Assembly: GCA_017858735.1 (NCBI GenBank)
Contig: JAFMBH010000013.1
Location: 1-60,642, forward strand
DNA length: 60,642 nucleotides
Reading direction: 5' to 3'
From: Bacteroidota bacterium
Lineage (GTDB): Bacteria; Bacteroidota; Bacteroidia; Chitinophagales; Saprospiraceae
Under the pieces are notes generated by a model. That model worked only from the letters and a program-made list of their open reading frames with translations. It ran no database searches and was not told where the DNA came from. Positions 3,929 to 60,642 of this stretch are shown here, piece after piece (position 1 is the first letter of the stretch; every line of letters starts with the position of its first letter). Made by a program: the position numbers and the translations under genes.

Positions 3929-4102
3929 AAAAGAGCATTTAGAATTGATTATTTTTAAAATACGCAAATTACTTCTCTGTTATGAACTAAAATTAATTTA
4001 GTATTAATTTTTTCTTAAATCAAGGCTTTAAATCGTAACTAAGGTTTGGGAGCAATGTTTCAGACTATTTTTTAGGAATTATCTCATTTTCTATCCGTTT
4101 GA

Positions 4103-37955: not shown

Positions 37956-38128
37956 TATTTTTGCTACTTTATATATGGGGCTAATAGGCCTTTGTAATGG
38001 CAAAGGATAAAAAATGGATGATTTTCTAAGGCTATGCCCGAGATGAATAATTGATTTTTCGACGATAGATTTTATAGGTGAAATTTACCTCTAACACCCG
38101 GTTCTGAATCACGGATTTTAAGGATTAC
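37956..38128 (-). repeat. Dispersed repeat of about 170 bp, copy 2 (inverted)
   Basis: Read on the minus strand, this matches the repeat at 1744-1916. Shared blocks in order are GTAATCCT, AAAAT, ATTCAGAACCG, GTGTTAG, a near-palindrome around GGTAAATTTCACC, CTATCGT, CTTAGAAAATCAT, ATTTTTTATCCTTT and ATTAGCC. It lies just after fadD and its right edge overlaps the 3' end of a doubtful small ORF. No coding potential is apparent in either copy. Confidence 0.65.
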
Positions 38129-38327
38129 CGGATTTCACGGAATATAGCGGGTGAAAGATGCACAGGATTACGCTTTTATGGTGCTTTCCAGAATATTTAA
38201 ATCTATTTAAAGCTGACTTATTCCTGTATTCTCGAATAAATTTGCTAATTCCATTCCGAGCACTTTCAGTTAATGGCTCGCTTTTAATAATAAAATCAAC
38301 ACCTTTTGGTTCTCTGATATGTCCCAT
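38118..38327 (-). CDS. Small hypothetical protein, possibly decayed
   Basis: The first 37 codons (MGHIREPKGVDFIIKSEPLT, then ESARNGISKFIREYRNK) look like a genuine small protein with an EPKGVDFxIxSxPLT-type N-terminus and an amphipathic helix. The remaining 32 residues run into the dispersed repeat and look non-coding. Just upstream on the same strand, 38330-38395, a second frame reads KLGVYTLVGHRMIIPTDIL before merging into this start, which suggests the eroded end of a preceding gene. I cannot assign a function. The rest of the 37898-38529 spacer shows no further gene. Confidence 0.35.
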   Translation of the reverse strand: MGHIREPKGVDFIIKSEPLTESARNGISKFIREYRNKSALNRFKYSGKHHKSVILCIFHPLYSVKSGNP

Positions 38328-42215: not shown

Positions 42216-42307
42216 TAATCGTATTTTACATATTTTGAGTATTTCACTTTACACTTTTGGAGCATTTTACTTTACATATTTATAGCAAACCACTTTACAC
42301 TTTCTGG
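42216..42307 (-). repeat. Tandem 23-bp iterons upstream of the DUF4143 ATPase gene
   Basis: Three clear 23-base units at 42239-42261, 42262-42284 and 42285-42307, plus a degenerate one at 42216-42238, lie directly upstream of the ATPase start at 42191. Each has an identical-phase core, TTTACA on the plus strand (ACTTTACA in the clear units; TGTAAAGT on the minus strand). The exact two-helical-turn period suggests cooperative protein binding on one face of the DNA. The remaining 42308-42533 stretch has short open frames in several phases, none convincing. Confidence 0.7.
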
Positions 42308-42533
42308 CTTGAAGGTTTCTTTTAAAGTATTTTCTTTGATGGGTTTGATGGAGAAAAGTTTATTCAGCCAAATGGCAAGTGAGAATAGCCCAACGTTTCA
42401 CTTCGGGATTTCCGGTCATAGTAATGCCAGTTATCCGTGCCATTTTGTCGAAATTAAAAGTCCCGGAATAATGGGGTTTAGCCATTATTTTTCATCAACC
42501 TCACGCTCTACTAAATCCTTTACAACATGGTGT

Positions 42534-46511: not shown

Positions 46512-47546
46512 CTATTCGAAAAAATCTTCCCAACGGTAATACTGGAAGGTACCATCTGTACTCATTGCCACAAAAATTCCTTTTTTAAACGTGTTATTTA
46601 GAGGTAAATGTAAGACCTCGCTACCATCACTCTCCAGCGAACTTGCATGAATCTTTTTGATTAACCCATGTTTATGTGGATTATCTTTCTGTCCTTCCCG
46701 TGGATAAGCATTAAATTGATTAGCCTGTTGGTCCGAAAGAAGGATGAAACCTGTCCCGTCAGGATTTTTAAAAATGGATAAACCCTCATGATCTTCCTTC
46801 ACCTTTTTTCGGGCAAATAAGGCAAGTTCGGCAGAACTGCTATCGGGATGTGCATAATATTTCCTTACTCCCTTCCCTTCATCGGAATAATATACATAAC
46901 CCAATTCGTTGTCAACTACGATAGATTCGATCTCCTTTTTTCCGCTAAACTTTCCAAATTTTCTGACCAGCTGACCTTTAACTACGCCATTGTTGTCGGC
47001 AGATAAAAGGTATTGAAAGATATAGTTTAGTTTAGGTCCTGTTTTTCGACCTACAAATGCATAGATTATATCGGTCCTGGAATCTTTGAACAGGGCAACA
47101 CCCATGGGGGAGCGTAAAGATTCTCCTTCAAAAACAGGGATTCCTCCGTTATCTATACTTTGCATTTCAGGTAATGAAAAAACGCGTATGGTATTTGTAT
47201 TCCGCTCTGTGCACACTGCAATATCTGTTTTTTTGCCTAGGACCATCAGGCCATAAGCTATATCAACATTATTAGGCCTTTTTAAACCTAAGACAGATTT
47301 GCCATAGTCTATCTTTCCATTCAGATCAAATACATAAAGTCCGCCATCGAGCGTATCATTTCCTTTATCTGTGCCGAGGATTAAGCTTTTAGCCGGATCT
47401 TCCTTATTGAACCAAATAGCAGGGTCATCACTATCGGACTTAACTTTTTCAGTGACAATTACCGGTATTTTTACTTTGGGGGAGTCTTGAACGTTACAAC
47501 TTAAAAAGGAAGTGAAGAGAATAAAGAAAAGGGATAAACGAATCAT
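46512..47546 (-). CDS. Beta-propeller phytase, lipoprotein
   Basis: This alkaline, Ca2+-dependent 3-phytase releases phosphate from myo-inositol hexakisphosphate. The lipobox is LFTSFLSC with cysteine 17, so the enzyme is anchored to the membrane. The family N-terminal motif SDSDDPAIWFN lies at 37-47, followed by ILGTDKGNDTLDGGLYVFDL, RPNNVDIAYG, CTERNTNTIRVF, SPMGVALF and EIESIVVDNELGYVYYSDEGKGVRKY-like blade sequences that carry the calcium and phosphate ligands. The length of 344 aa is typical. It is divergent from a TonB-dependent receptor 143 bases away, a pairing that points to uptake of phytate or its breakdown products. Confidence 0.88.
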   Translation of the reverse strand: MIRLSLFFILFTSFLSCNVQDSPKVKIPVIVTEKVKSDSDDPAIWFNKEDPAKSLILGTDKGNDTLDGGLYVFDLNGKIDYGKSVLGLKRPNNVDIAYGLMVLGKKTDIAVCTERNTNTIRVFSLPEMQSIDNGGIPVFEGESLRSPMGVALFKDSRTDIIYAFVGRKTGPKLNYIFQYLLSADNNGVVKGQLVRKFGKFSGKKEIESIVVDNELGYVYYSDEGKGVRKYYAHPDSSSAELALFARKKVKEDHEGLSIFKNPDGTGFILLSDQQANQFNAYPREGQKDNPHKHGLIKKIHASSLESDGSEVLHLPLNNTFKKGIFVAMSTDGTFQYYRWEDFFE

Positions 47547-47562
47547 GAGTATATATTTGCCT

Positions 47563-47570
47563 CAAAATTA
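47563..47570 (-). promoter_or_regulatory. Possible -7 promoter box of the phytase gene
   Basis: On the minus strand the sequence is TAATTTTG, which fits the Bacteroidota -7 consensus TAnnTTTG, 16 bases upstream of the phytase ATG. A second match on the plus strand, TATATTTG at 47552-47559, could serve the receptor gene, with a leader of about 125 bases. Neither has a clear -33 element, and I see no phosphate-regulon box that I can name. Confidence 0.3.
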
Positions 47571-47689
47571 GGTTAATATTTTCCACGAAGAACCGATAAG
47601 TATTTTTTAATAATTAATTAATATACATAAATTATTCAATTAACAATACACCTATAATATTGCTGCTTCAAACAAACAAAAATTAAAAT

Positions 47690-50488
47690 ATGTTAAGAAT
47701 TCTAACTTTACTAAGTTTTCTAATAATTACTTCTGTTTTGCAAGGTCAAACAGGTAAATTAATAGGAAAAGTTTTGGATGAAAATGGATTGAGTATGCCG
47801 GGTGCAACCTTGTCCATAAGTACACAACCCATTTCTGGGACTATTTCTGATAATTCGGGAAAATTTCAATTTATTAATCTGAAAGAGGGAAAATATATCC
47901 TTTCTGTTTCTTATTTGGGTTATATCTCTTTAGAGGCAGAGGTTAATATTTCAGGCGGAACAACTACAGAACAGAATTTCAAATTATTGGAATCAGCTAT
48001 TCTTGGCGAAGAGGTATTAATACTCGGAGACAGATTAAAAGGTCAGGCTAAGGCCTTGAATCAACAAAAGAATAATGCTAATATCACCAATATTGTGGCT
48101 GCTGACCAAATTGGTAAGTTCCCGGATGCAAATATCGGAGATGCGTTAAAACGTATTTCGGGTATTACGATGCAAAATGACCAGGGCGAAGCAAGAAATA
48201 TTATTATTCGCGGTATGGCCCCTCAGTTAAATTCAGTTATGTTGAATGGAGAAAGAGTTCCATCAGCAGAAGGGGATAACAGAAATGTTCAGCTCGATTT
48301 GATTCCGGCAGATATGATTCAAACCATTGAGGTGAATAAGGCCATTCTGCCTAACATGGACGCTGATGCCATTGGTGGTGCCGTTAATCTCGTAACGAGA
48401 AAAGCGCCAAATGCTCTTCGACTTTCTGGAACATTGGGTTCTGGTTTGAATTTATTATCCGAAAAGCCTATTTTAAATGGTTCTCTTATTATAGGTGATA
48501 GAGTGGCAAATGATAAATTGGGAGTCATTTTATCAGCTTCTTATAACAATCATAATTTTGGTTCTGATAACTATGAGGCGGTTTGGGCTCAAACGACGAA
48601 TGCGAAATATCCAGTTGTGTTAAGCGGTTTTGATTTGAGAAAGTATGATGTTCAAAGAGTTCGCAGAAGTATTTCCCTTGCATTGGATTATGAATTGGGT
48701 AAAGGACACAATATCTATTTTAACACCATGTATAATTGGAGAGACGATTGGGAAAACCGATATAGATTTAGAGCGGATAGATTAAATTCCCCTGTGACTT
48801 CTGGTAAATTTACCGAGATTTCTGATAAACTGTTGGAGTTAACAGGTAGAGTAGCCATTCAAACAAAAGGTGGTATTGATAATGCAAGAAATAAAGCAAC
48901 GAGACTTGAAGATCAGCGGGTTAATAATAATATGTTGTCAGGAGACCATTTATTTGGTTCGTTGAAAATGAAATGGTCTGCTACCTTGGCATCTGCCTTA
49001 GAGGATAGACCAAATGAGCGTTACATAACACACAGATCAAATAAATTAGTATTGGTGGACACTAAAGATCCTTTTAAGGCTTTAGTAACCCTTAAAAATC
49101 AGGCAGATGCCCTTACACTTTCATTGAATGAAATAAATGAATCCAATAATAATACCAATGAACAGGATTTTAACAGTAAGGTAGATTTTGAATTACCATT
49201 CAAAAATAATAAGGGAAATATATATTTTGGGGGTAGATTAAGGAATAAACAAAAAGAAAGAGTTGATTCTTATGATATCTATTCACCTATCACCACATTG
49301 GCAAGCGGGGGAAATAATTTCGGCAGTCTTACTTTTTCAAAACAAGATGATCGTATTTTCTTGAATGGTGATAAATACGTTCCAGGTAATTTTGTAAATA
49401 GCACCTACCTGGGTGGTTTAAATTTTAATGATAATAGCAAATTCAAAAAAGAGGACGCTATAGCAGAGTATATCACATCTAACTATTCTGCTACAGAAAA
49501 CATACAGGCAACTTATCTGATGAGCGATTATAAATTATCAGATAAATTGATGATCATAGCTGGTTTAAGGGTCGAAAATACAAACATTAATTACAGAGGA
49601 TTCAATTTTGATGAGGAGACGGAGGTTGCCAGTGAAACGCCTGAAGTTAAAAAGTCTTATATCAATGTATTACCTGGTGCCCATTTGAAATATAACTTCA
49701 CAGATAATGCTATACTCAGGTTGGCCTGGACCAATTCGTTGGCCAGACCAAATTATTATGATATTGTTCCGCATGCAACCTACAATCCTGACGATCAAGT
49801 CTTAATTCAGGGTAATCCTGATTTGGAAGCAACTACCTCAAGTAATTTTGACCTTATGTTTGAAAATTATTTCAAATCAATTGGCTTAATTTCAATAGGT
49901 TCTTTCTATAAAGATTTGAATAATTTTATTTATACCCGTACCGATTTAAATGTGACCGATGCTAAATATGGTCAGTTACAATCCAGAACACAACCTCAGA
50001 ATGGTGGAACGGCAAATGTATATGGTTTGGAGCTTTCCTTCCAAAGACAACTCGATTTTTTACCTGGATTTTTAAAAGGCTTTGGTGTATATCTGAATTA
50101 TACCCTTACGGAATCAAGTACTACGGGCATACAGGGTAGAGAAAATGATGATCTAAGACTGACAGGAACAGCAAAAAATATGTTGAATGCTTCCCTTTCT
50201 TATGAAACTAAGAAACTGGTTCTCAGGGCATCATTGAATTATGCAAGTGATTATATCGATTTGATTGGAGGATCTTCTTTCAATGATATTTACTATGACA
50301 AACAGTTGTTTTTAGATGTAAATGCTTCTTATGCTGTCACTCCAAAATGGAGGGTTTACTTTGAAGCAAACAACCTGACAAACCAACCGTTGAGATATTA
50401 TCAGGGGATTAGGGAGAGAACTTATCAAGAAGAATATTATAATGCAAGAATAAATCTTGGCATCAAGTTCGATTTCTTTGGAAATTAA
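47690..50488 (+). CDS. TonB-dependent receptor paired with phytase
   Basis: This 932-aa outer-membrane active transporter has a signal peptide at about 1-20 and a carboxypeptidase-regulatory-like domain (about 24-105; GKLIGKVLDENGLSMPGATL). The plug domain (about 125-240) has the pattern DQIGKFPDANIGDALKRISG, then RGMAPQLNSVMLNGER and DADAIGGAVNL, typical of the TIGR01782-like class also found in Xanthomonas and Caulobacter. The rest is a 22-strand barrel ending in INLGIKFDFFGN, with a terminal Phe nearby. It belongs to no SusC/SusD pair. The divergent phytase lipoprotein suggests an inositol-phosphate substrate, which is an inference. Confidence 0.9.
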   Translation: MLRILTLLSFLIITSVLQGQTGKLIGKVLDENGLSMPGATLSISTQPISGTISDNSGKFQFINLKEGKYILSVSYLGYISLEAEVNISGGTTTEQNFKLLESAILGEEVLILGDRLKGQAKALNQQKNNANITNIVAADQIGKFPDANIGDALKRISGITMQNDQGEARNIIIRGMAPQLNSVMLNGERVPSAEGDNRNVQLDLIPADMIQTIEVNKAILPNMDADAIGGAVNLVTRKAPNALRLSGTLGSGLNLLSEKPILNGSLIIGDRVANDKLGVILSASYNNHNFGSDNYEAVWAQTTNAKYPVVLSGFDLRKYDVQRVRRSISLALDYELGKGHNIYFNTMYNWRDDWENRYRFRADRLNSPVTSGKFTEISDKLLELTGRVAIQTKGGIDNARNKATRLEDQRVNNNMLSGDHLFGSLKMKWSATLASALEDRPNERYITHRSNKLVLVDTKDPFKALVTLKNQADALTLSLNEINESNNNTNEQDFNSKVDFELPFKNNKGNIYFGGRLRNKQKERVDSYDIYSPITTLASGGNNFGSLTFSKQDDRIFLNGDKYVPGNFVNSTYLGGLNFNDNSKFKKEDAIAEYITSNYSATENIQATYLMSDYKLSDKLMIIAGLRVENTNINYRGFNFDEETEVASETPEVKKSYINVLPGAHLKYNFTDNAILRLAWTNSLARPNYYDIVPHATYNPDDQVLIQGNPDLEATTSSNFDLMFENYFKSIGLISIGSFYKDLNNFIYTRTDLNVTDAKYGQLQSRTQPQNGGTANVYGLELSFQRQLDFLPGFLKGFGVYLNYTLTESSTTGIQGRENDDLRLTGTAKNMLNASLSYETKKLVLRASLNYASDYIDLIGGSSFNDIYYDKQLFLDVNASYAVTPKWRVYFEANNLTNQPLRYYQGIRERTYQEEYYNARINLGIKFDFFGN

Positions 50489-50512
50489 ACGATTGAAGGG
50501 ATAAACAAAAAA

Positions 50513-50538
50513 GGAGGCTATCTAAAAAGATAGTCTCC
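50513..50538 (+). terminator. Intrinsic terminator of the TonB-dependent receptor gene
   Basis: GGAGGCTATCT and AGATAGTCTCC pair across AAAA (one G-U pair), followed by seven T residues. It lies 24 bases after the receptor stop. The core sequence is nearly the same as the terminator of the phosphatase gene at 1923-1956 read on its minus strand. Confidence 0.85.
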
Positions 50539-50556
50539 TTTTTTTATGGTCATAAA

Positions 50557-50669
50557 TGACCCCAGAGGGGTCACACGTTTATAGCGTTTTTGCCGCCAGG
50601 GGCATGATGGTAGCGTTTTTGCCGCCAGGGGCATAATGGTACAATGGGGAAATTTTGCCGCAAGGGCAT
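50557..50669. repeat. GC-rich palindromic dispersed repeat, copy 2, with tandem units
   Basis: A TGACCCC-AGA-GGGGTCA palindrome lies at 50557-50573. Two directly adjacent 29-base units follow at 50582-50610 and 50611-50639, differing at one base and each containing TTTTTGCCGCCAGGGGCAT, whose ends TGCC and GGCA are inverted. A third, degenerate unit, TTTTGCCGCAAGGGCAT, ends at 50669. The same order of elements in diverged form occurs at 16-118. The stretch lies between the receptor terminator and the btaB stop codon. Confidence 0.75.
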
Positions 50670-50678
50670 TTTCCTTTT

Positions 50679-51305
50679 TTATTTCTTACCAACAAAAAGC
50701 AGGTATTGCCATATTCCGAAATAGGCCGATTTTATTTCTTTTTGTGTTGAGGTAAACAGCTTTTCCAGGACTGGCAGCAAATGGCCGTTCATCTCCACGT
50801 GATTGACACCCATCCATTTTTTAAATCCGGAAAAAGTAGATTGGTGGAAATCAACCACGGCGATATGACCTCCTGGTTTCAGGTCCTTTTGGGCTTGCTC
50901 AAGAAGTTCTTCCCAACCTGGATTAATCATGCTTAGGGAATAAGAAAATAGGATAAGATCCGGTTTTTCCCAATCCTCCGTGTGATTTACTTTGTAGGTG
51001 GTATGCAAAATGGAACAGGTTTTTTCAAAACTCTGTAATTTCTCTTTTGCTATCTCAACCATTTCTTTAGAGGTATCCAGTCCCAGACAGGTGATAGATG
51101 GATGTGTTTTTAACAGGAAGGCTAGGTTTTTACCCGTTCCACAACCTATTTCCCATATATGATACGGTTTTTTGGGTATCTGTAATTTCTTTAAAATACT
51201 AATACGACCAAATAAAAAACTCCATCTGGTCAGGTCATAAATGGGGGCATGCATTTGGTAATAACTGGAAAGGGTTTGTTCCAGTGTTTTATGTTGGGTT
51301 TTCAT
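50679..51305 (-). CDS. btaB: BtaB-like SAM-dependent methyltransferase (betaine lipid synthesis)
   Basis: This 208-aa class I methyltransferase has the SAM-binding motif EIGCGTGKN at 52-60 and an acidic residue after the second strand (LGLDTSKEM). It opens with YYQMHAPIYDLTRWSFLFGR, the conserved N-terminus of BtaB proteins. BtaB methylates the amino group of diacylglyceryl-homoserine three times to give the betaine lipid DGTS. The BtaA-like gene is 6 bases upstream in the same direction, which makes the assignment firm. DGTS contains no phosphorus and replaces phospholipids under phosphate limitation in the organisms where it has been studied. Confidence 0.87.
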   Translation of the reverse strand: MKTQHKTLEQTLSSYYQMHAPIYDLTRWSFLFGRISILKKLQIPKKPYHIWEIGCGTGKNLAFLLKTHPSITCLGLDTSKEMVEIAKEKLQSFEKTCSILHTTYKVNHTEDWEKPDLILFSYSLSMINPGWEELLEQAQKDLKPGGHIAVVDFHQSTFSGFKKWMGVNHVEMNGHLLPVLEKLFTSTQKEIKSAYFGIWQYLLFVGKK

Positions 51306-51311
51306 TAGGTG

Positions 51312-52469
51312 TTATTTTACGATGCCTAAATGTACACTACCGTAGGTTCCTACCCGGTCTAAGCTATGCTGAATCAGTGTTTCATTATTTGAAAAATCAA
51401 TCGCATCATGTACAAAATCTGGAATAAATTTTAAATGATTAGCCGCAGAACGGAGCAAAAATTTAGTACCCGGCGCACTGTTTTTAAGCATTATTTCCCA
51501 TTCTTCCCTCATAGCATCTGGATTATGATAAGCAAGCCAGTCCAAATGGTCTAAAAGGATGAAATGAGAATAAGTTCCTGGATTTTCAGTAAGGAAAGAA
51601 GTGATGGTTTGGGAATAGGTGCTGATTTTATTAACTTTATTCTTTAGGGTCTCAAAATTTTCAGGTTTCAGATAATTTGGGCAACAATCGTGTGTGTATT
51701 TTCCAAATAAATATACATGCCAGAAATAATTATCCCGCAACGGTATTTTTGTAAATACATGTTTCAAACTATTTAAAATAAAGGATTTTACTCCTCCTGG
51801 ATTATCGGCTTGAATCAAATTTCTTTGAGCTCTTGGCACTCCTGCCATAGTTAAAACAGTATGACGACTGGTAAGCCACTGAAAAAAGGGAGAGAATATT
51901 TTCCTTTCTATACCCACATATTTCTCTTTCTGTTCCTCTAACGATGTGGAGGAAAATATTTTCTTAAGATCAGCTTTTAAGGTGGGGGTAAGATTCAAAA
52001 AGTTTTTAAACCACCAGGCAATTAATCCAGACGTTCCATGGTAATAAAAACTACCCTTGTTTTTATCCGCCTCAAAATAATGCGCTTTTTGTTGCCAATA
52101 TTGGAGGTCGTTTTCTGTCAGGGACCTGGACAAATATTTATTTAAAAGGTATTTAAAATCAATCGTATTGCCTTCTCCAAATAATTCAAATAATATAGGA
52201 TGCTCCGTTTCTTTAAATACGGACTTTTTTAAATTTAACAGTGCATTTTGTCGGGGATTCATATCCACGCAATGTATTTCCTTTGGATTATCAAGCAGAT
52301 AATCCAACGCATTACATCCCGCACTGGTTATCATACAAAGTTTGCTTTCTTCATTTATTTGGAGTAATTGCCTGTCACATCTGGGGTCTTCCCAGCAAGT
52401 GTTATATACTAAATTGGAGGTATGAATCTGTTTAAAAAACTGATCCCGGAAATGATGTAATGCAGTCAT
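51312..52469 (-). CDS. btaA: BtaA-like SAM:diacylglycerol 3-amino-3-carboxypropyltransferase
   Basis: This DUF3419 protein of 385 aa transfers the aminocarboxypropyl group of SAM to diacylglycerol, the first step of betaine-lipid synthesis. The conserved blocks are LVYNTCWEDPRCDRQLL at 20-36, MITSAGCNALDYLL at 46-59 and HCVDMNPRQNALLNLK at 66-81, which form the SAM site. C-terminal conserved parts include ILLDHLDWL and the AAPGTKFLLRSA-like end. It forms a two-gene operon with btaB, separated from the phosphonate-type oxidase by a strong terminator. The pairing in a member of the Bacteroidota is noteworthy. Confidence 0.9.
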   Translation of the reverse strand: MTALHHFRDQFFKQIHTSNLVYNTCWEDPRCDRQLLQINEESKLCMITSAGCNALDYLLDNPKEIHCVDMNPRQNALLNLKKSVFKETEHPILFELFGEGNTIDFKYLLNKYLSRSLTENDLQYWQQKAHYFEADKNKGSFYYHGTSGLIAWWFKNFLNLTPTLKADLKKIFSSTSLEEQKEKYVGIERKIFSPFFQWLTSRHTVLTMAGVPRAQRNLIQADNPGGVKSFILNSLKHVFTKIPLRDNYFWHVYLFGKYTHDCCPNYLKPENFETLKNKVNKISTYSQTITSFLTENPGTYSHFILLDHLDWLAYHNPDAMREEWEIMLKNSAPGTKFLLRSAANHLKFIPDFVHDAIDFSNNETLIQHSLDRVGTYGSVHLGIVK

Positions 52470-52552
52470 ATATTTTTTCTTTTAAGGCACTTGTAAAGGT
52501 AAAATGACCATATTACTTTAAGATTATCTGAATATTAAATGAACGTAAAAAA

Positions 52553-52577
52553 ACCTGAACCACGTGAAGGTTCAGGT
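52553..52577 (-). terminator. Intrinsic terminator downstream of the FAD oxidoreductase gene
   Basis: On the minus strand ACCTGAACC and GGTTCAGGT form a perfect 9-bp stem with a 7-base loop, followed at once by a run of T residues. It is about 110 bases beyond the FAD gene and in front of btaA, so btaA-btaB is a separate transcription unit. Confidence 0.85.
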
Positions 52578-52684
52578 CAACCAGATGGTATGAAAAAACA
52601 CTAATTATCATCAGCAATATAATTGCAAAAGTATAACCCAGACTTTAGAATGGCGCGCTTTTTCATATTATGTAAACATCATTT

Positions 52685-53800
52685 TTATGTTAAATCAGCA
52701 AGTCCAAAAGATAAGGTCATGCCAGCACCTCCGACGCCGGTAATAGCTTGAACACCTTGTTCCACCTCACCAATATGCCATTTGGCATGAGGTTTTTTAA
52801 CATAAGTGCCATTCCAGAAGGACTGAATTTCAGGGTGGGGAAAATGAGCAAAAGAATCTAAATATTGAAGAATAAGGTCATTTGTCTTTTGATCATCAAA
52901 GGGTAATATAGAATCTCCGTAGTGGTGGCTGTCCCCTAAGGTTACTTCATTATAAGCTGTTTGCGAAGCCAAGACGTGAATCCCTCTTTTTAAATATTCA
53001 GGAGATTCATTTTCTATCCTTTTCTTCAATATTTCCCTGGAAGGGCAGGACAGAAACGATTCATAGTGCAGGAGGGTCAGTCCGGCAGCTAAATTTGGAC
53101 CCAATGACCAGTCCGACGGTTGGGAAGCGGTCCGCATCATCTGTAATTTGCATTTTACTAAATCTAATGACTGGTAATATTCCGGGTATAAGGTTTCCAG
53201 ATCTTCACCGGTGCAAAGGATTATTTTTTCGGCCTGCCAGACTTTTTTGCCACTGTGCAAACGAGGAAAATCAACAGCTGAAATGACGGTTTTGTACTCA
53301 ATGTGTACGTTCAATACCTCTTTTAAGTACTTATGCATTTGCCAAACAGCCTGACGTGGATCGACATTTACCTCCGTTGAGCTGAACAAAGCACCAAATA
53401 GGCCTTTTGTTTTTACAGCGGCACTTTTTTGACTTACCATTTCAGGGGTCAGCAATTCAATCGAATAGGGTTTATTATGGTATAACGCATGGAATTCATT
53501 TAATATGGCCCATTCATCCTCGTGATAGGCCAGGTGCAATGAACCCGTCGGAGCAGCCCAGAAATTTGCCTTTTCCGCCAGCTCCAACCATATTCCCCTC
53601 GATTTTAGGGCCACTGGATAACTATCGGTAGGTTGACCGATAGGCCAAATCATGCCAAAATTTCTGATGGAAGCACCTTGTGCTTGAGGATTCCTTTCAA
53701 AAAGGATTACTTTCTGTCCTTTTTTAGCTCTTTCCCAGGCTTGAGCCAGCCCAATAATTCCTCCGCCAACGATGGCGATATCAAAATGATCTTTGTTCAT
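52685..53800 (-). CDS. FAD-dependent oxidoreductase of phosphonate catabolism loci (TIGR03364-type)
   Basis: This DAO-fold flavoprotein of 371 aa has the FAD-binding motif GGGIIG at 12-17 and the segment GASIRNFGMIWPIGQPTD (42-59) characteristic of the TIGR03364 family. It ends with GVGGAGMTLSFGLADLT. Published work on related enzymes shows oxidation of N-methyl-2-aminoethylphosphonate, and for some also aminoethylphosphonate, to phosphonoacetaldehyde, which replaces the PhnW transaminase. The gene is divergent, 129 bases from the PhnX-like hydrolase, which would use that product. No PhnW gene is in the window. The substrate of this copy is inferred by family and neighbours. Confidence 0.85.
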   Translation of the reverse strand: MNKDHFDIAIVGGGIIGLAQAWERAKKGQKVILFERNPQAQGASIRNFGMIWPIGQPTDSYPVALKSRGIWLELAEKANFWAAPTGSLHLAYHEDEWAILNEFHALYHNKPYSIELLTPEMVSQKSAAVKTKGLFGALFSSTEVNVDPRQAVWQMHKYLKEVLNVHIEYKTVISAVDFPRLHSGKKVWQAEKIILCTGEDLETLYPEYYQSLDLVKCKLQMMRTASQPSDWSLGPNLAAGLTLLHYESFLSCPSREILKKRIENESPEYLKRGIHVLASQTAYNEVTLGDSHHYGDSILPFDDQKTNDLILQYLDSFAHFPHPEIQSFWNGTYVKKPHAKWHIGEVEQGVQAITGVGGAGMTLSFGLADLT

Positions 53801-53896
53801 GTTAATCCACAGTTTCTAAGATTAAGAGAAGATTAATTCTTTGGGTAAAGGTAAATCTTTGTACTTTGACAAATAGAAATTAAATATTAAATATGG

Positions 53897-53904
53897 TAGC
53901 TTTG
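53897..53904 (+). promoter_or_regulatory. Possible -7 promoter box of the phosphonate hydrolase gene
   Basis: TAGCTTTG fits the Bacteroidota consensus TAnnTTTG and lies 25 bases before the ATG at 53930. The nearest upstream TTG is 28 bases away, further than the usual 19-21, so the match is weak. The 129-base divergent spacer must carry promoters for both genes. Confidence 0.3.
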
Positions 53905-53929
53905 ATGTTAATTTTTAAATAATTGTAAG

Positions 53930-54670
53930 ATGACGAAAATAAAATTGATGGTTTTAGATATGGCTGGAACCACCGTCAGAGATAAAAATGAAGTGGAGGA
54001 CTGTTTTTTAAAGGCGGCAAAGGAATCGAATTTAAAAACAACGCCTCAAAGGGTGAACGATTTGCAGGGAATCCCCAAATTGATTGTCATAAATACACTT
54101 TGGGAAGAATATCTGGGAAAAGATCATCCTGATTTTGCTATCAATGTGGACAAAACCTTTCAATCTTTTAAGGAAATTTTGGAAAATCACTATCTGACAC
54201 AGCCAATTTTTCCTGCGTTTAAAGCGGAAGAGACATTGCTTTGGCTTCGGAGTAAAGGGATAAAAATAGCGCTAACTACCGGTTTTTATAGAAAAGTAAC
54301 CAATATCATTCTGAATAGATTAGGTTGGGACAAGCACCTGAATGAGGTATATTTTAATTATACAGGAAATGCAATGATTGACCTTTCTTTGACTCCTGAT
54401 GAAACAGGTGGGGTTGGCAGACCTTATCCTGATATGATATTTAAGGCAATGGAAATATTCAACATCAAAGACCCGCAGGAAGTGGCTAATATTGGGGATA
54501 CACCTTCTGATATATTATCGGGAAATGCAGCTAAATGTCAATTTTCATTAGGCATTTTAAATGGTACACACACTAAGGAGTCATTGGAAGAATATCCTAA
54601 TCACGGTCTTTTAGATTCCCTGGCTCAATTACCCGAATTTTTGGAAGGTCACGAGGTAATTTTAAAATAG
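53930..54670 (+). CDS. PhnX-like phosphonatase family HAD hydrolase (TIGR03351-type)
   Basis: This 246-aa HAD-superfamily hydrolase related to phosphonoacetaldehyde hydrolase has the nucleophile motif DMAGTTV at 10-16, the same DxAGTT pattern as PhnX. Lys50 in QGIPK lies where PhnX has its Schiff-base lysine (Lys53 in the Bacillus enzyme). Motif II is LTTGF at 116-120, GRPYPDM is at 164-170 and the metal motif GDTPSD is at 190-195. It could cleave phosphonoacetaldehyde to acetaldehyde and phosphate. The family is described as phosphonatase-like and the exact substrate is unproven. The PhnZ-like gene follows after 86 bases. Confidence 0.85.
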   Translation: MTKIKLMVLDMAGTTVRDKNEVEDCFLKAAKESNLKTTPQRVNDLQGIPKLIVINTLWEEYLGKDHPDFAINVDKTFQSFKEILENHYLTQPIFPAFKAEETLLWLRSKGIKIALTTGFYRKVTNIILNRLGWDKHLNEVYFNYTGNAMIDLSLTPDETGGVGRPYPDMIFKAMEIFNIKDPQEVANIGDTPSDILSGNAAKCQFSLGILNGTHTKESLEEYPNHGLLDSLAQLPEFLEGHEVILK

Positions 54671-54756
54671 ATTCAGTTAATGATTATTTAATATTTAGAT
54701 AATATGCAATAATTATAAATTCTTTTGTATCCATATACCTTTAAATTTAAAAAGGT

Positions 54757-55335
54757 ATGGAAACAAAAAATGATATCATTGCTGCCATTCTACAATTGTT
54801 TAACGACAAAGGGCATTCTGAATACGGGGGAGAAGCAGTGACTCAGTTAGAGCACGCCTTACAAACTGCCACTTTAGCACGGGAAAATAATGCCTCAGAT
54901 CAACTAATAACGGCCGCTTTATTACACGATATAGGGCATTTGTTGCATGATCTACCTAACGATGCTCCTCTCAATGGAATAGATGATGTACATGAAAATA
55001 AAGCAGCTGTTTTTTTAAGAAAATATTTTCCGGAGGCAGTAACGGAACCTGTTCGCTTACATGTAATGGCAAAAAGGTATCTCTCTTCCACAGAAGAAAC
55101 CTATTATTCCTTGTTAAGTGAGCCTTCTAAACAAAGTTTAGTATTACAAGGTGGCTTAATGTCTTCAACTGAAGTAAGTTCCTTCGAACAAAATCCATTT
55201 TTTTCTGATGCTGTTAAGTTGAGAAAATGGGATGATCAAGCCAAAGTAAAAGAATTAATTACCGCGCCAGTGGAAGATTTCGAAAAAAATATAGCCGTAT
55301 CTCTGCGTTCTTACTTTTTAGAAGATAGCTTATGA
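54757..55335 (+). CDS. PhnZ-like HD-domain phosphonate oxygenase (TIGR03276-type)
   Basis: This 192-aa HD-domain protein of the group found in phosphonate degradation operons resembles PhnZ, a mixed-valent diiron oxygenase that cleaves 2-amino-1-hydroxyethylphosphonate to glycine and phosphate. The metal ligands match in order and spacing: H33, H57, D58, H79, H102 and D159 or D160 (PhnZ H34, H58, D59, H80, H104, D161). The gating residues Y23 and E26 in YGGE correspond to PhnZ Y24 and E27. No PhnY or TmpA hydroxylase that would make the substrate is in the window. The stop overlaps the DUF5690 gene by ATGA. Confidence 0.88.
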   Translation: METKNDIIAAILQLFNDKGHSEYGGEAVTQLEHALQTATLARENNASDQLITAALLHDIGHLLHDLPNDAPLNGIDDVHENKAAVFLRKYFPEAVTEPVRLHVMAKRYLSSTEETYYSLLSEPSKQSLVLQGGLMSSTEVSSFEQNPFFSDAVKLRKWDDQAKVKELITAPVEDFEKNIAVSLRSYFLEDSL

Positions 55336-56603
55336 GATCGTCGTCGCTAAGACCAGATATACTGTATCGACATCCCGTCTGGGCGATTTTGGCTGCTTTT
55401 GGAACTTATTTTTGTATGTATGGCTTTAGAAAACCCTACACAGCTGCCGATTTTGACGGTTATTTGCTTTGGGGAATTGGCTATAAAACAGTGTTGGTTT
55501 CCTCCCAAATCATTGGCTACGCTTTATCTAAATTCATTGGCATTAAAGTAATTTCCGAACTGGGAAATCAAAACAGGACTAAGATTCTTATTGGTTTTAT
55601 TCTGTTTGCCCAACTAATGTTGGTAGGTTTTGGTCTGGTTCCACCTTCTTTTGGTATCATTTTCTTATTTCTCAACGGCTTACCTTTAGGTATGGTTTAC
55701 GGGATTGTACAGAGCTATCTGGAGGGAAGGAAGATGACTGAAGCTCTCATTGCAGGTTTATGTATTAGCTTTATTTTAGCAGACGGGTTCACAAAAACAG
55801 TTGGAAGCTACTTACTTCAAACGGGAATTTCTCCTTTCTGGATGCCTGGTCTGGCTGGATTTTTGTTTATTATACCCACTATGTTTTTTATCTGGATGCT
55901 AACAAAGATTCCTCCTCCGAGCCTGGAAGATGAAGATCACCGGGTGAAAAGAACGCCTTTGTCTGGTAAGGAAAGGGTTGTTTTATTGAAGCGTTTTGGT
56001 TGGGGAATCTTTTTCATTGGTATTGCCTTTTTACTTATCACTTTACTAAGGAGTTTTAGGGCCGATTTTGCCCTGGAAATCTGGCAGGGATTAAATTATA
56101 AGGGAATCCCCTCCATTTTTATATATTCGGAACTGTGGATAGCCTTAGGAATTATTTTATCTCATGCGCTCATCGTGTTAATTAAAAGCAATAAAAAGGC
56201 TTTTTTCTTCAGCTTGATATTATGTAACCTCGGTTTTTTACTCATCTTATTGGCCTTGTTCGCACAATGGCGAGGGATGGACGGATTTTGGTTTATGGTG
56301 CTTTCAGGCTTAGGGATTTATATACCTTACGTTACTATTCATACCACCGTTTTTGAACGTCTCATTGCCACTTTCAGGCAGGAGGGAAATATTGGATTTT
56401 TCATGTACATCGTTGATAGCATGGGCTACATAGGCTATGTATTTTTACTTTTCTCGAAAGAGTTTATACCTAAAACATCGGTAATCATATATTTTAAATA
56501 TTGTCTTATTTTATTTTCAATTATAGCTATTTTATTTTTAATAATGGCTATTGTTTATTTCAAACGAAAATTAACGATTAGTTCACAAGATGTTGTTGTT
56601 TAG
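55332..56603 (+). CDS. DUF5690/MFS-like transporter, candidate phosphonate permease
   Basis: This 423-aa protein has about 12 transmembrane helices in an MFS-like layout with a charged central loop (about 195-225). The first helix carries YFCMYGFRKPYTAA, which resembles the GlpT/UhpT-type organophosphate antiporter motif (YxxRKxxT). Its start overlaps the PhnZ-like stop by four bases, a strong sign that the two work together. I infer import of an organophosphonate across the inner membrane. The family has no established substrate that I know of. A hairpin follows, then the SusC gene. Confidence 0.82.
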   Translation: MRSSSLRPDILYRHPVWAILAAFGTYFCMYGFRKPYTAADFDGYLLWGIGYKTVLVSSQIIGYALSKFIGIKVISELGNQNRTKILIGFILFAQLMLVGFGLVPPSFGIIFLFLNGLPLGMVYGIVQSYLEGRKMTEALIAGLCISFILADGFTKTVGSYLLQTGISPFWMPGLAGFLFIIPTMFFIWMLTKIPPPSLEDEDHRVKRTPLSGKERVVLLKRFGWGIFFIGIAFLLITLLRSFRADFALEIWQGLNYKGIPSIFIYSELWIALGIILSHALIVLIKSNKKAFFFSLILCNLGFLLILLALFAQWRGMDGFWFMVLSGLGIYIPYVTIHTTVFERLIATFRQEGNIGFFMYIVDSMGYIGYVFLLFSKEFIPKTSVIIYFKYCLILFSIIAILFLIMAIVYFKRKLTISSQDVVV

Positions 56604-56637
56604 TTAGTATTACCCTACCATATTTGTGACGAAAATT

Positions 56638-56672
56638 GAGGAGTGTACCATTTAAGAATGAATTCACTCCTC
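56638..56672 (+). terminator. Hairpin between DUF5690 and SusC genes
   Basis: GAGGAGTG and CACTCCTC form a perfect 8-bp stem across a 19-base AT-rich loop, 34 bases after the DUF5690 stop. There is only a weak T run. It suggests that the SusC/SusD genes may be expressed separately from, or at a different level to, the upstream catabolic genes. Confidence 0.5.
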
Positions 56673-56701
56673 TCTAATTTACTTTAACTAAAAACAAATT
56701 T

Positions 56702-59700
56702 ATGCGTTTTTTTACACAAAAGTTTAAAAAAAGCAAAGTATTGTCTGTATTTTTTATGTGCAGCGCTATGTTATTTGCTTTAAATGGTTTTTCTCAAAAG
56801 ATGGTTCAGGGAATCGTTTATGAGCAAGAAACCGAATCTCCCATTATTGGCGCCAATGTATTGGTAAAAGGATCAAGTACTGGAACAGTAACTGACTTAC
56901 AAGGCAAATTCTCCATTTCTCTTAAGCAAGGGGAGAATGTGCTTGTTTTTTCTTACGTAGGCTTCGCTGAAAAAGAGGTGACTGTTGACGGTCAGACTAC
57001 AATCAATGTGTATTTGGAAGAAGCGGCATTAGGTTTGACAGAAGTTACCGTTACCGCTTTGGGTATCACAAAAGAGAAGAAGAGAATTACTACAGCTATT
57101 CAAAGTGTTGATGGTTCTCAATTGGTTAAGGCCAGAGAACCTAACAATATTAACGGATTAGTTGGTAAGGTGGCTGGTTTAACTATTGGTACTTCGCCTG
57201 AGCTTTTACGTCGTCCTAATGTGCTTTTGAGAGGTAGCTCCGACCTGTTATATGTTGTGGATGGCGTACCTATTAATTCTGATACCTGGAATATTAACTC
57301 CGATGATATTGAAACTTTTACCGTGCTAAAAGGTGCAACAGCCGCAGCACTTTACGGTTTCCGTGGGCGTAATGGAGCTATCATCATTTCTACAAAGAGA
57401 GGAACAGGTAAAAAGAAAGGATTTACAGTGGAATTCAACTCTTCAACTATGATGGAAGACGGGTTCAACGCTATTCCTAAAGTTCAGGATTTATACGGCC
57501 CTGGTGATCATGGTAATTATGAATTCGTAGATGGTAAAGGTGGAGGAAAAAATGACGGTGATTATGACGTTTGGGGTCCTCCATTGGACGGTCGTTTGAT
57601 TGCTCAATATGATAGCCCAATTGATCCATTAACCGGAAAGAGAATTCCAACGCCATTTACGGCCAGAGGAAAAGATAATCTCACAAGGTTTTTACAACCA
57701 GGTGTTTTAGCAAAAAATAGTTTTGCCGTAGCAAGTTCAGGCGAACGTTATGATATGCGTTTTTCAATGGGTCACAATTACCAGCAAGGTATCGTACCAA
57801 ATACTAATCTGAATATTTTAAATTTTAATGCAACGTTAGGTTTTGATTTTACTAAAAAACTTCGTTTTGAATCTAATATAAACTATAACAGACAGTATTC
57901 TGACAATTTTCCGGACGCAAATTACGGTCCAAACTCTATTATTTATAACATCGTTACCTGGGCAGGTGCTGACTGGGACGTTGATGACATGAAGAACTAC
58001 TGGCAGGAAGGTAAAGAAGGTGTTCAGCAGATTTATGCGGAATATCAGCGTTATAACAATCCTTGGTTCATGTCAAAGGAATGGTTGCGCGGGCATTACA
58101 AAAATGATGTGTATGGTTACGGAAGTCTAACCTACTCATTTACTGACAAACTTAAATTGGTTGGTCGTACGTCGGTAACTTCTTACGATTTATTAAGAGA
58201 CGAAAAATTCCCTTATTCAGCTGGTTCTTACGGACGTGACGAGCGCAAAGGTGATTATAGAGAAGATAGACGTTCATTATTTGAAAATAATACCGACGTT
58301 CTTTTAACTTACAATGAGTCTTTTGGTAAAGTGGGCGTAAATCTATTAGGTGGTGCAAACATTCGCTCATTTTCCTATAGAAGTAACTATGCATCAACCG
58401 ATTATTTGATCACTCCAGGCGTTTATTCTTTCACCAATTCTTTGAATCCAGCCAGAGTATTCAGCTTTGAGTCTAAGATGGGCGTTGCCAGTGCGTATTA
58501 TTCGGCTGATATCTCTCTTGGGAATATTTTAAATTTAACACACACAGGTAGAGTAGATAAAATATCAACGTTACCCGTTGGTAATCAGACTTTTTACTAT
58601 CCTTCTTTAGGTGCAAATAGTATTATTACAGAATTGGTTGATTTAGGACCTATTACGTTCTTAAAATTACGTGGTGCTTACGCCAATGTAAAAGATGGTC
58701 TTACCTCATCTACTATTGGTACTTCAGCAGCTCCATTTGGAGGTAATCCACTAGGTTACGGCGATACTTATTTCTCCTCTTATGACGGTCCAAACTATAG
58801 TAATTCAACGGTTTATAGTACTCAAACAGGTTACAATAATAATCCTGCAGCTTACTATTCAAATACTTTAGGTAATCCAAGTTTACAGAGAAATTCAAGA
58901 TCTGAAATTGAAATGGGATTTGATTTAGGTATGTTAAAAAATAAGTTGAATGTAGAATTTACTTATTTCAACATATTGGAAGGTCCTAGAACTTTTGCAA
59001 GACCTATTTCTGAGGCTACAGGTTATACAGGACAGTTGGTAAATGGTATTTCTACGAGAAGAAAAGGATTGGAATTAGTACTAAAAGCTGACCCAAATAA
59101 AGGATCTTCCAGCAAGTTCCGTTGGAACCCGGAATTAAATATATCAACATTCAGAGAGAGATGGGCTTCATTTTACAAAGACGACAAAGGGGTTGAGTTA
59201 ACAGAATTGTCTCCATTCCAACAGATAGGAGAAAGGGTAGATAAATTTTACACTTCAGGTTATTTATTCACACAAGATGGTCAGATTATTAATGATGCAG
59301 GTGGAAGACCTATCAGAGTTGCTTCTGTGAATGGTAATGCACGTAAATTTGTTGGACATTTAGATCCGGATTTTGTTTGGGGTTTAATAAATCGTTTTTC
59401 ATATAAAAACTGGTCTGTTTCTTTCCAATTTGATGGAAGACAAGGTGGTGTTATTTCCAACTACATTCAAAGACAAACTTTCAGAGGTGGTCGCCATATA
59501 GCAACGGTTCAGGGAGATATTGCCAATGCTCGTTTGGAGGACACCAAAGGAAATCGTACCTGGTTAGGTCAAGGGGTTCAGTTAGCCAATACAGCGTCTA
59601 TCAAAACGGACATTTATGGGAATATCACTAATTATAGCGAGCTTCAATTCAAACCAAATGGTACTAAAACATTTTTACAAGACTGGATTAGCCGCTACTA

Positions 59701-59953
59701 CCAAGATGACGAGAATAATTTAATGAGCCGTTCTTTTGCAAAACTAAGAGAGGTAGTTATTACTTATCAGGTGCCAATGAAACCAGGTAGTTTCTTCCAG
59801 GATATTACTTTGTCTTTTGTGGGTCGTAACTTACTTTATTTTGCTGAAAGCAAGGACGTAGATTTAGATCAATATACAGGTCGTCAAGGTTCATCCAGTT
59901 TTGAAACGCCGACCACTAAACGCTTTGGATTTAACCTAAATATTAAATTCTAA
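56702..59953 (+). CDS. SusC/RagA family TonB-linked outer membrane transporter
   Basis: This 1083-aa protein has a signal peptide at about 1-31 (ending GFSQ) and a CarboxypepD-reg-like domain (about 35-110; VQGIVYEQETESPIIGANVL). The TonB box/plug start is LTEVTVTALGITKEKK (about 112-127), the plug is at about 130-235 with LLRGSSDLLYVVDGVPIN, and a large barrel ends NLNIKF with a terminal Phe. It is the channel half of a SusC/SusD complex. SusC/SusD pairs usually import glycans, but this one sits directly after phosphonate genes and no glycoside hydrolase is present, so a phosphonate-containing oligomer or lipid-derived headgroup is a reasonable guess. Confidence 0.93.
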   Translation: MRFFTQKFKKSKVLSVFFMCSAMLFALNGFSQKMVQGIVYEQETESPIIGANVLVKGSSTGTVTDLQGKFSISLKQGENVLVFSYVGFAEKEVTVDGQTTINVYLEEAALGLTEVTVTALGITKEKKRITTAIQSVDGSQLVKAREPNNINGLVGKVAGLTIGTSPELLRRPNVLLRGSSDLLYVVDGVPINSDTWNINSDDIETFTVLKGATAAALYGFRGRNGAIIISTKRGTGKKKGFTVEFNSSTMMEDGFNAIPKVQDLYGPGDHGNYEFVDGKGGGKNDGDYDVWGPPLDGRLIAQYDSPIDPLTGKRIPTPFTARGKDNLTRFLQPGVLAKNSFAVASSGERYDMRFSMGHNYQQGIVPNTNLNILNFNATLGFDFTKKLRFESNINYNRQYSDNFPDANYGPNSIIYNIVTWAGADWDVDDMKNYWQEGKEGVQQIYAEYQRYNNPWFMSKEWLRGHYKNDVYGYGSLTYSFTDKLKLVGRTSVTSYDLLRDEKFPYSAGSYGRDERKGDYREDRRSLFENNTDVLLTYNESFGKVGVNLLGGANIRSFSYRSNYASTDYLITPGVYSFTNSLNPARVFSFESKMGVASAYYSADISLGNILNLTHTGRVDKISTLPVGNQTFYYPSLGANSIITELVDLGPITFLKLRGAYANVKDGLTSSTIGTSAAPFGGNPLGYGDTYFSSYDGPNYSNSTVYSTQTGYNNNPAAYYSNTLGNPSLQRNSRSEIEMGFDLGMLKNKLNVEFTYFNILEGPRTFARPISEATGYTGQLVNGISTRRKGLELVLKADPNKGSSSKFRWNPELNISTFRERWASFYKDDKGVELTELSPFQQIGERVDKFYTSGYLFTQDGQIINDAGGRPIRVASVNGNARKFVGHLDPDFVWGLINRFSYKNWSVSFQFDGRQGGVISNYIQRQTFRGGRHIATVQGDIANARLEDTKGNRTWLGQGVQLANTASIKTDIYGNITNYSELQFKPNGTKTFLQDWISRYYQDDENNLMSRSFAKLREVVITYQVPMKPGSFFQDITLSFVGRNLLYFAESKDVDLDQYTGRQGSSSFETPTTKRFGFNLNIKF

Positions 59954-59985
59954 GACGGTATCATTCCAACTCTAAAATTTTTAAA

Positions 59986-60642
59986 ATGAAAAAGTATATA
60001 TTTATAACGTTGGCTATTTGCATGTTTGCCTTCAATTCATGTGATTATGCTTCCCTGGATGTCGATCCAAACAGAGCAACCTCAACGCCTCCTTCCCTCA
60101 TAATGAATGGCGTACTTTTAAATATGCGCACAGGTGCATGGAACTCACCAATGCGTTGGAATCAATATTTTTGTATTAATTATAACTATTACGGTACGAA
60201 TGAATACTGGTCAGGTTCTGCAGTTTTAGACTATACCCGTCTAAAAAATATTCAGAAAATGGAGGAAGAGGCTATCAAAGCAGGTGCCGCTGCAGTTAAT
60301 CCTTATGCCGCAGTAGGGAAGTTTTTACGCGCTTACCATTTTGTTAATATGACACAAAAAGTGGGTGATTTACCTTTGTTAGAAAGCTTAAATGGATTGG
60401 AGAACACCGCTCCTAAATATGCAACACAAAAGGAAATATACATACAAGTTCTCAAATGGTTGGAAGAATCAAACAGCGATTTTGCTGCATTAATCCAAAA
60501 GGGTGGGCAGAAAGTAGATGGTGATTGGTTCTATAATGGCAATCTTGTAAAATGGCAAAAATTGGTTAACTCATTTAAATTAAGAGTGTTAATAAGTTTG
60601 AGCAAAAAAGAAAACGATGCAGATTTGAAGATTAAGCAGTTA
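59986..60642 (+). CDS. SusD/RagB family lipoprotein (partial, cut by window end)
   Basis: The gene begins at the ATG at 59986 with the lipoprotein signal MKKYIFITLAICMFAFNSCD (cysteine 19), and the frame is still open after 219 codons at the window edge. Sequence such as YAAVGKFLRAYHFVNMTQKVGDLPLLESL is the TPR-rich SusD-like fold. Pairing with the SusC gene 32 bases upstream confirms it as the surface lid of the transporter. The missing C-terminal half should hold most of the ligand-binding residues. Confidence 0.92.
   Translation, partial: MKKYIFITLAICMFAFNSCDYASLDVDPNRATSTPPSLIMNGVLLNMRTGAWNSPMRWNQYFCINYNYYGTNEYWSGSAVLDYTRLKNIQKMEEEAIKAGAAAVNPYAAVGKFLRAYHFVNMTQKVGDLPLLESLNGLENTAPKYATQKEIYIQVLKWLEESNSDFAALIQKGGQKVDGDWFYNGNLVKWQKLVNSFKLRVLISLSKKENDADLKIKQL

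Follow-up and report, generated by a model that had tools for sequence, protein, structure and literature searches.

Gene content and organization of the phosphorus locus

We analyzed a stretch of 60,642 bases (hereafter the window), which is one entire contig (JAFMBH010000013.1; C176 of genome G000, 4.23 Mb) of a Saprospiraceae bacterium, and focused on the ten genes that occupy its end at 46512-60642. As listed in Table 1, these genes fall into three modules: (A) a phytase with a TonB-dependent receptor, (B) the betaine-lipid pair BtaA-BtaB, and (C) a phosphonate unit composed of a PbfD-type flavin adenine dinucleotide (FAD) oxidase, a PhnX-like hydrolase, a PhnZ/TmpB-type HD-domain oxygenase (phnHD), a DUF5690 transporter and a SusC/SusD pair. 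The original prediction had named these phosphorus genes within 14 kb, and profile searches found all of them in place. Most of its labels were confirmed, the weaker ones being the PhnX-like protein, which falls below both PhnX cut-offs, and BtaB, a generic methyltransferase by profile. Among the 30 other window genes that were profiled, most of those with a match belonged to the housekeeping or surface classes (DNA polymerase I, RsgA, Omp85, undecaprenyl diphosphate synthase etc.), and the only other phosphatase-type matches were a calcineurin-like phosphoesterase (2015-3967) and an inositol-monophosphatase-family protein (34778-35584). The phosphorus theme is therefore largely confined to this end of the window.

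Table 1. Genes and signals of the phosphorus locus (window coordinates; SAM, S-adenosylmethionine; HAD, haloacid dehalogenase; MFS, major facilitator superfamily).
Feature	Coordinates	Strand	Evidence
Beta-propeller phytase, lipoprotein-like N-terminus (module A)	46512..47546	-	PF02333 140 bits
TonB-dependent receptor, divergent from phytase (module A)	47690..50488	+	TIGR01782 498 bits
Probable two-sided terminator hairpin, TonB receptor end/btaB end	50507..50544	.	Fold -22.4 kcal/mol, z -7.4
BtaB-type SAM methyltransferase (module B)	50679..51305	-	Methyltransf_12 4.5e-15; 6 bp after btaA
BtaA, DUF3419 (module B)	51312..52469	-	PF11899 356 bits
Putative promoter element TTTAATATT-N29-TACCTTT before btaA	52495..52539	-	Two exact genome-wide matches; post hoc
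Terminator hairpin, pbfD/btaA interval	52552..52578	-	Present in 5/5 genus genomes compared
PbfD-type FAD-dependent aminophosphonate oxidase (module C)	52685..53800	-	TIGR03364 407 bits, cut-off 285
Putative promoter element, second exact copy, before pbfD	53847..53891	-	Exact-match genome search
PhnX-like HAD hydrolase (module C)	53930..54670	+	TIGR03351 170.5 bits, below cut-off
TTTAATATTNNGATAAT before phnHD, also before btaA	54687..54703	+	At phnHD in 1/5 genus genomes compared (G000 only)
PhnZ/TmpB-type HD-domain oxygenase (module C)	54757..55335	+	TIGR03276 217.6 bits
DUF5690 MFS-fold transporter, probable phosphonate carrier (module C)	55332..56603	+	PF18943 438 bits
SusC outer-membrane transporter (module C)	56702..59953	+	TIGR04056 445 bits
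SusD-like lipoprotein, truncated at contig end (module C)	59986..60642	+	PF12771 (SusD-like_2) 103 bits

The window phytase aligns with the solved phytase 1cvm (E = 1.5e-29), belongs to the PF02333 family, and contains DDPAIW and NNVD, which we take to be important phytase motifs. Related receptors adjoin related phytases on the same strand in two other loci (L131 and L133). BtaA is covered by PF11899 over its full length (355.6 bits, residues 11-381 of 385). BtaB matched only generic SAM methyltransferase profiles and was named from its position after btaA and from the recurring pairing of the two genes: a BtaB match was present in 66 of the 80 BtaA loci surveyed here, which are the best 80 of at least 576 relatives in a scan of named genomes with the BtaA profile. 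BtaA and BtaB are known to make betaine lipid from diacylglycerol and S-adenosylmethionine.

In module C, the FAD oxidase scored 406.8 bits with TIGR03364, above the cut-off of 285.1, and the HD oxygenase scored 217.6 with TIGR03276 (cut-off 214.6), below the narrower models for HMP dioxygenase (182.5, cut-off 300) and TmpB (177.7, cut-off 300). The HD oxygenase aligns with TmpB (6npa, E = 4.6e-34) and PhnZ (4mlm), Y-x-x-E and HD motifs included, and shares their core in the form of YGGE at 23 (Y-x-G-E) and LLHDIGH at 55. In contrast to these enzymes, it is encoded without a partner of the PhnY/TmpA type (a 2-oxoglutarate dioxygenase), no PF05721 gene being present in the cluster. PF05721 matches found elsewhere in 7/7 genus genomes were rejected as this partner, their distribution being out of step with the locus. 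In the PhnX-like protein, which carries G47-x-x-K50, a profile of ten such proteins places K50 on the GLLK lysine of a PhnX structure, and G47 and K50 are invariant in the 10 sequences. We take Lys53 of PhnX to be the Schiff-base lysine and K50 to be its counterpart.

The modelled DUF5690 protein is all-helical (mean predicted local distance difference test score 82, seven sequences), and its best fold matches were MFS carriers, among them the human glucose-6-phosphate transporters G6PT and SLC37A2, GlpT, and also sialin, SPNS2 and GLUT4. This fold is compatible with, rather than proof of, an organophosphorus carrier, probably a phosphonate transporter. DUF5690 was named in no paper among the open-licence literature searched. 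Within the family, DUF5690 also adjoins proteins resembling the phosphonate-associated dehydrogenase TIGR03366 (reference protein 311.5 bits, cut-off 328.1). Its neighbours of about 360 residues were considered as the transaminase PhnW and rejected, one having no family and one being that TIGR03366-like protein. A protein family of 362-422 residues was also observed beside DUF5690 or btaB (L087:8834-9922, L135:12562-13830 and L253:11997-13265); neither Pfam nor NCBIfam gave a match for the first of these, and Pfam gave none for the second.

The phytase and its receptor are divergent, 143 bp apart. The btaA-btaB pair forms one unit and pbfD a single-gene unit, with a terminator hairpin between them (-17.3 kcal/mol, 0/200 shuffles as good), while the receptor and btaB ends share the strong hairpin of Table 1. 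Since phnX, phnHD, DUF5690, susC and susD lie on the same strand with gaps of 86, -4, 98 and 32 bp, they may form a single transcription unit, in place of the separate ones proposed originally. A consensus terminator scan of the whole region detected no excess (14 sites, shuffle mean 12.7). Short direct repeats of the tttttgccgccaggggca type were spotted by eye in the interval between the receptor and btaB (50565-50670).

Association of betaine-lipid and phosphonate genes in relatives

A BtaA reading frame of at least 100 residues was detectable by blastp in 76 of the 80 surveyed loci, many of which stop at contig ends. Their neighbours were mechanical open reading frames identified by blastp comparison with proteins of the window and reference proteins, an approach that can miss distant phosphorus genes. 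We observed phosphonate-unit genes near BtaA in ten of the 80 loci, four in the genus of the window (L175-L178) and six outside it (L222, L235, L238, L246, L251 and L253), in varied arrangements. The order is susC-susD-phnHD-btaA-btaB in L222, with a 4-bp overlap of phnHD and btaA; btaA-btaB-susC-susD-phnHD on one strand in L246; pbfD / phnX-btaA-btaB in L238, the last three on one strand; pbfD-DUF5690 / btaA in L251 and L253; and btaA-btaB followed, after four genes, by pbfD-DUF5690 in L235. L222 and L235 additionally carry a phosphoesterase-family protein and a TonB receptor. As control baits in the 76 loci outside the genus, 33 further genes of the window retrieved no neighbour at 45% identity or more, and two of them had one neighbour each at 35%. 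At 35%, the genes of module C gave four neighbours for PbfD, four for DUF5690, three each for SusC and SusD, two for PhnHD and one for PhnX. A phytase match was present in only two of the 80 loci, both in the genus of the window, and neither the phytase nor its receptor was found near BtaA in the 76 loci outside it.

We then compared trees, obtained with 'quick' searches. Placing the 12 phosphonate-linked rows on the BtaA tree of 98 rows takes five changes, four of them forced by starred branches; with 54 rows, five changes are again needed and three are forced. An approximately unbiased (AU) test was run on 54 of the 98 rows, which we chose ourselves, with L238 dropped from the tested group after tree inspection. 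It rejected a single clade both when every other linked row was included (p = 2e-68) and when the group was limited to the six linked rows outside the genus, less L238 (p = 3.6e-6). The SusC proteins behave differently: those of the linked loci that have one, L238 apart, make up one clade (100*) that holds nine linked rows (five from this genus) and the unlinked L086. One SusCD lineage thus accompanies different BtaA lineages, which argues in favour of function over a single frozen cluster. A single ancient linkage of modules B and C followed by many losses is a possible alternative.

Co-occurrence was examined in 100 genomes of the family (the window's own included) and in a larger set of 248. 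Of the 100 genomes, 20 held DUF5690, 26 a BtaA-family match, 14 a phytase and 18 a TIGR03364 protein above cut-off. The FAD oxidase, the PhnX-like protein and DUF5690 often occurred together beyond the genus as well, in some cases with the oxygenase and SusCD. Among the 248 genomes, BtaA (at least 250 bits) was present in 58, DUF5690 in 49 and both in 33, compared to 11.5 expected. Counted by genus, 17 of 112 had both (7.5 expected, p = 9e-6), and with one genome per genus (54 genera) six did (2.4 expected, p = 0.008); these counts rest on hand-copied gene lists. Physical linkage of BtaA and DUF5690 in the 248 genomes was observed only in the genus of the window and in G251, where btaA-btaB directly adjoins susD-susC, a LysE-type gene, pbfD and DUF5690, in an order that differs from that of the genus.

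Gain and loss of phosphorus modules within the genus

Seven genomes of the genus, all fragmented assemblies, were searched. The B+C block has the same order, btaB-btaA-pbfD / phnX-phnHD-DUF5690-susC-susD, in five of them (G000, G001, G004, G005 and G006; the G004 contig ends inside susC), with protein identities of about 90-99%. One phytase of the genus genomes has 85%. In G005, the FAD oxidase (L080:16193-17173) is shortened to 326 residues with its middle unmatched, which may reflect decay or an assembly error. The searches of the two other genomes, G002 and G003, yielded neither BtaA nor DUF5690. In G002 (L084:5801-7400), the sulfatase gene that comes after susD elsewhere adjoins a 153-bp piece identical to G005, which reaches into the susD 3' end; a short repeat-bearing stretch and then the TonB receptor flank come next. 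The short repeats of this stretch also occur in the window at 1771-1951 and 38055-38149. Since a susD 3' remnant lies between the sulfatase gene and the receptor flank, the B+C block was probably lost from G002 by deletion, leaving this scar.

The phytase and receptor pair adjoins btaB in G000, G005 and G006, and is present without the B+C block in G002. G001 and G004, two of the five carriers of the B+C block, lack it in the interval from the DoxX gene to btaB. About five genes away, these two genomes have another operon, which encodes a PhoX-like protein, a second phytase, a choice-of-anchor-I protein and a second TonB receptor (L076:763-11093; L078:12462-20000). This operon sits at the position of window 42303-42504 in G001 and on another contig in G006. 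As the phytase pair, the PhoX operon and the B+C block come and go among the genus genomes, the site gains and loses phosphorus modules.

After susD, we observed in G001, G005 and G006 a sulfatase-superfamily protein with a weak match to a type IX secretion tail (L077:6804-8603), which might serve the phosphonate unit as a phosphatase or esterase.

A putative low-phosphate programme and its alternatives

We favour, with moderate confidence, the reading that three phosphorus modules have accumulated at this locus in a lineage-specific manner, that modules B and C are functionally associated, that module C is a phosphate utilisation system (PUS; see below), and that both B and C are presumably induced by low phosphate. 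The betaine-lipid and phosphonate genes represent a recurrent association and probably belong to one low-phosphate programme. The original prediction had proposed a joint phosphate-starvation island. For the betaine-lipid and phosphonate genes, this proposal is supported by the linkage in ten of 80 loci, six of them outside the genus, at five places in the tree and in varied orders, but the phytase pair does not follow. One island of all ten genes was therefore rejected, the pair being found in 0/76 loci outside the genus, with G001 and G004 lacking it here as well.

In passages of PMC8115612, the PUS (PusCD) clusters of Flavobacterium are described as SusCD with phosphatases, phosphonate enzymes and inner-membrane transporters, induced by low phosphate. 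Module C resembles them, since its SusC-SusD pair adjoins organic-phosphorus enzymes and an inner-membrane transporter, as is similarly the case in L162, L168 and others. As a further likeness, pstS was present in only 26/102 strains of that study (PMC8115612), and PhoU was not found in four genus genomes here. The window unit differs from these clusters in carrying BtaA-BtaB, and 'betaine' is absent from the main text of PMC8115612. Passages of the same source report for F. johnsoniae a PF02333 phytase and a TonB receptor with adjacent locus tags (Fjoh_1367/1368), both induced by low phosphate; module A resembles this pair but adjoins btaAB. Betaine-lipid genes are part of a phosphorus-starvation cluster in the plcP-btaA-btaB arrangement of Phaeobacter and others, according to passages of PMC4796936. 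In contrast, the ten window genes include no PlcP-type gene, and btaAB has phosphonate genes as its partners in the window and the polyphosphate kinase PPK1 in many relatives. PbfD1 (TIGR03364) and its relative PbfD2 oxidise N-methyl-aminoethylphosphonate, and aminoethylphosphonate (AEP) less efficiently, to phosphonoacetaldehyde, as stated in passages of PMC10590968. The AEP clusters presented there likewise place the TIGR03364 family beside phosphonatase-type genes, but those passages contain no link to BtaAB, and 'bacteroid' and 'DUF5690' are absent from the main text. We found no description of a joint betaine-lipid and phosphonate cluster in the titles and abstracts of the open-licence literature searched (top entries of large lists), nor in passages of PMC13086504. 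In keeping with the earlier statement, the whole set was not found described as one system among these entries, whereas the SusCD-phosphonate PUS and the phytase-receptor pair are both known. The locus would represent a PUS that carries lipid-remodelling genes.

Gene content, recurrent linkage and trees come from the present analysis, and the activities of homologous families from the literature; on this basis we infer for these copies the following substrates, transport direction and joint induction. SusCD would carry an aminophosphonate-bearing compound across the outer membrane, and DUF5690 would move the free phosphonate through the inner membrane. PbfD would convert N-methyl-AEP (or AEP) to phosphonoacetaldehyde, which the PhnX-like enzyme would split into acetaldehyde and phosphate, and the HD oxygenase would cleave a 1-hydroxy-aminophosphonate oxidatively. 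The betaine lipid made by BtaA-BtaB would replace membrane phospholipid and spare phosphate in this way. Low phosphate would presumably switch on both B and C. The phytase and receptor pair would add phytate scavenging, and belongs to the set by neighbourhood only.

Several observations weigh against a functional association of B and C under low phosphate. No phosphonate-unit gene was present in the stretch covered for 70 of the 80 BtaA loci, and the bait controls were unmatched in copy number and function. Linkage of BtaA and DUF5690 was unseen in 15 of the 17 genera that have both (many on short contigs), and seen in at least two. The B+C order is kept in 5/7 genus genomes, but scattered genes in relatives, which the original prediction had named as its refutation, are the case in most genera seen. 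When genome size was controlled in the 54 genera, the excess of BtaA with DUF5690 became weaker (permutation p = 0.045, logistic p = 0.20). The PhnX-like protein scored below both PhnX models (TIGR03351, 170.5 for a cut-off of 218.9; TIGR01422, 79.4 for 220). Concerning regulation, PhoU (PF01895) was not found in the four genus genomes searched (G000, G001, G005 and G006), while 13/14 control genomes were positive, and the best PhoB-like regulators reached 214.5-216.3 of the 296.2 required.

The upstream sequences belong partly on the same side, and are suggestive at most of common promoter control. Direct repeats of period 11 upstream of BtaA scored 5.15, with a shuffled maximum of 5.16 (75 regions, 30 shuffles). 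A 20-base word common to the btaA and phnHD promoters matched at 18/20 positions, with 0/60 shuffles as good; at phnHD it sits in a stretch present in the window genome only (1/5 genus genomes), and a control pair, the upstream regions of btaA and an acetyltransferase, gave a 17/20 word that beat all 60 shuffles likewise. The element TTTAATATT-N29-TACCTTT was first noticed by eye in two promoters. Across the genome, exact matches are confined to those two sites in both G000 and G006, and G001 has one exact copy and one with one mismatch; allowing one mismatch, G000 has six matches compared to four for the reversed control. An unbiased comparison over 45 bases, covering 519 upstream pairs of the window, placed TonB receptor-phnHD at rank 1, btaA-phnHD at 3 and btaA-pbfD at 166, and after correction for composition the pairs of the locus ranked at best 3, 6, 15 and 16, with others down to 502. 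The proposed search for a shared PhoB-type motif thus yielded no accepted Pho box.

Among the alternatives, an insertion hot spot, at which an insertion-tolerant site and a habitat selecting any phosphorus genes would assemble the locus without joint regulation, appears unlikely. It would fit the absence of the phytase pair from G001 and G004, the varying position of the PhoX operon, the loss of the B+C block in G002 with its susD remnant and the short repeats in the flanks. However, it leaves the linkage of B and C in other genera and the gene overlap in L222 unexplained.

A chance neighbourhood, in which independent phosphorus modules came to lie side by side in one ancestor of the genus and were kept by common descent, is distinctly improbable. 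The closeness of the genus genomes, visible in the protein identities given above, agrees with it, as do the 15 genera in which the linkage was unseen and the lack of module A near BtaA outside the genus. For modules B and C it is hard to hold, since their linkage recurs in six loci outside the genus, in other orders and in non-sister BtaA lineages, and the control genes show nothing similar. Pure chance was rejected for these two modules on the ten linked loci, the five tree changes, the nearly empty controls and the AU test.

Direct metabolic coupling, with BtaAB or its methyltransferase acting on a phosphonate or its products (e.g. lipid-borne N-methyl-AEP), is highly improbable: the phnHD/btaA overlap in L222, the one-strand orders of L238 and L246 and the action of PbfD on N-methylated AEP (passages of PMC10590968) would suit it, but BtaAB lacks phosphonate-unit genes in 70 of the 80 loci. 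BtaAB chemistry, as generally understood, also requires only S-adenosylmethionine and diacylglycerol.

Betaine lipids and phosphonate use are usually viewed as separate answers to phosphorus shortage. Their recurrent linkage in Saprospiraceae-type bacteria suggests that both are tied into one programme there, and gives DUF5690 a testable role as a phosphonate transporter. A bolder version, which we regard as doubtful, is that a PUS subtype with one SusCD lineage repeatedly joined BtaAB to form a regulated 'scavenge and spare' programme under a regulator other than Pst-PhoU. Such a programme would combine the uptake and splitting of N-methylated aminophosphonates, possibly phosphonolipid head groups, with the replacement of the cell's own phospholipids.

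Finally, PPK1 appeared as a second recurrent phosphorus partner of the betaine-lipid genes, preceding BtaA-BtaB in many Saprospiraceae-type genomes (e.g. L106, L137, L141 and L186). The pairing was not found in the titles and abstracts of the literature searched. A BtaA neighbour of about 680 residues in relatives had been considered as a phospholipase, and the one profiled was PPK1. PPK1 was present near BtaA in 16 of the 80 loci (not adjacent in L215), and in 16/32 other BtaA regions of the family, in one of them not near BtaA. Upstream of PPK1, the period-11 repeats scored 5.43, compared to a maximum of 5.21 in 30 shuffles (14 regions, three of which share one identical repeat).

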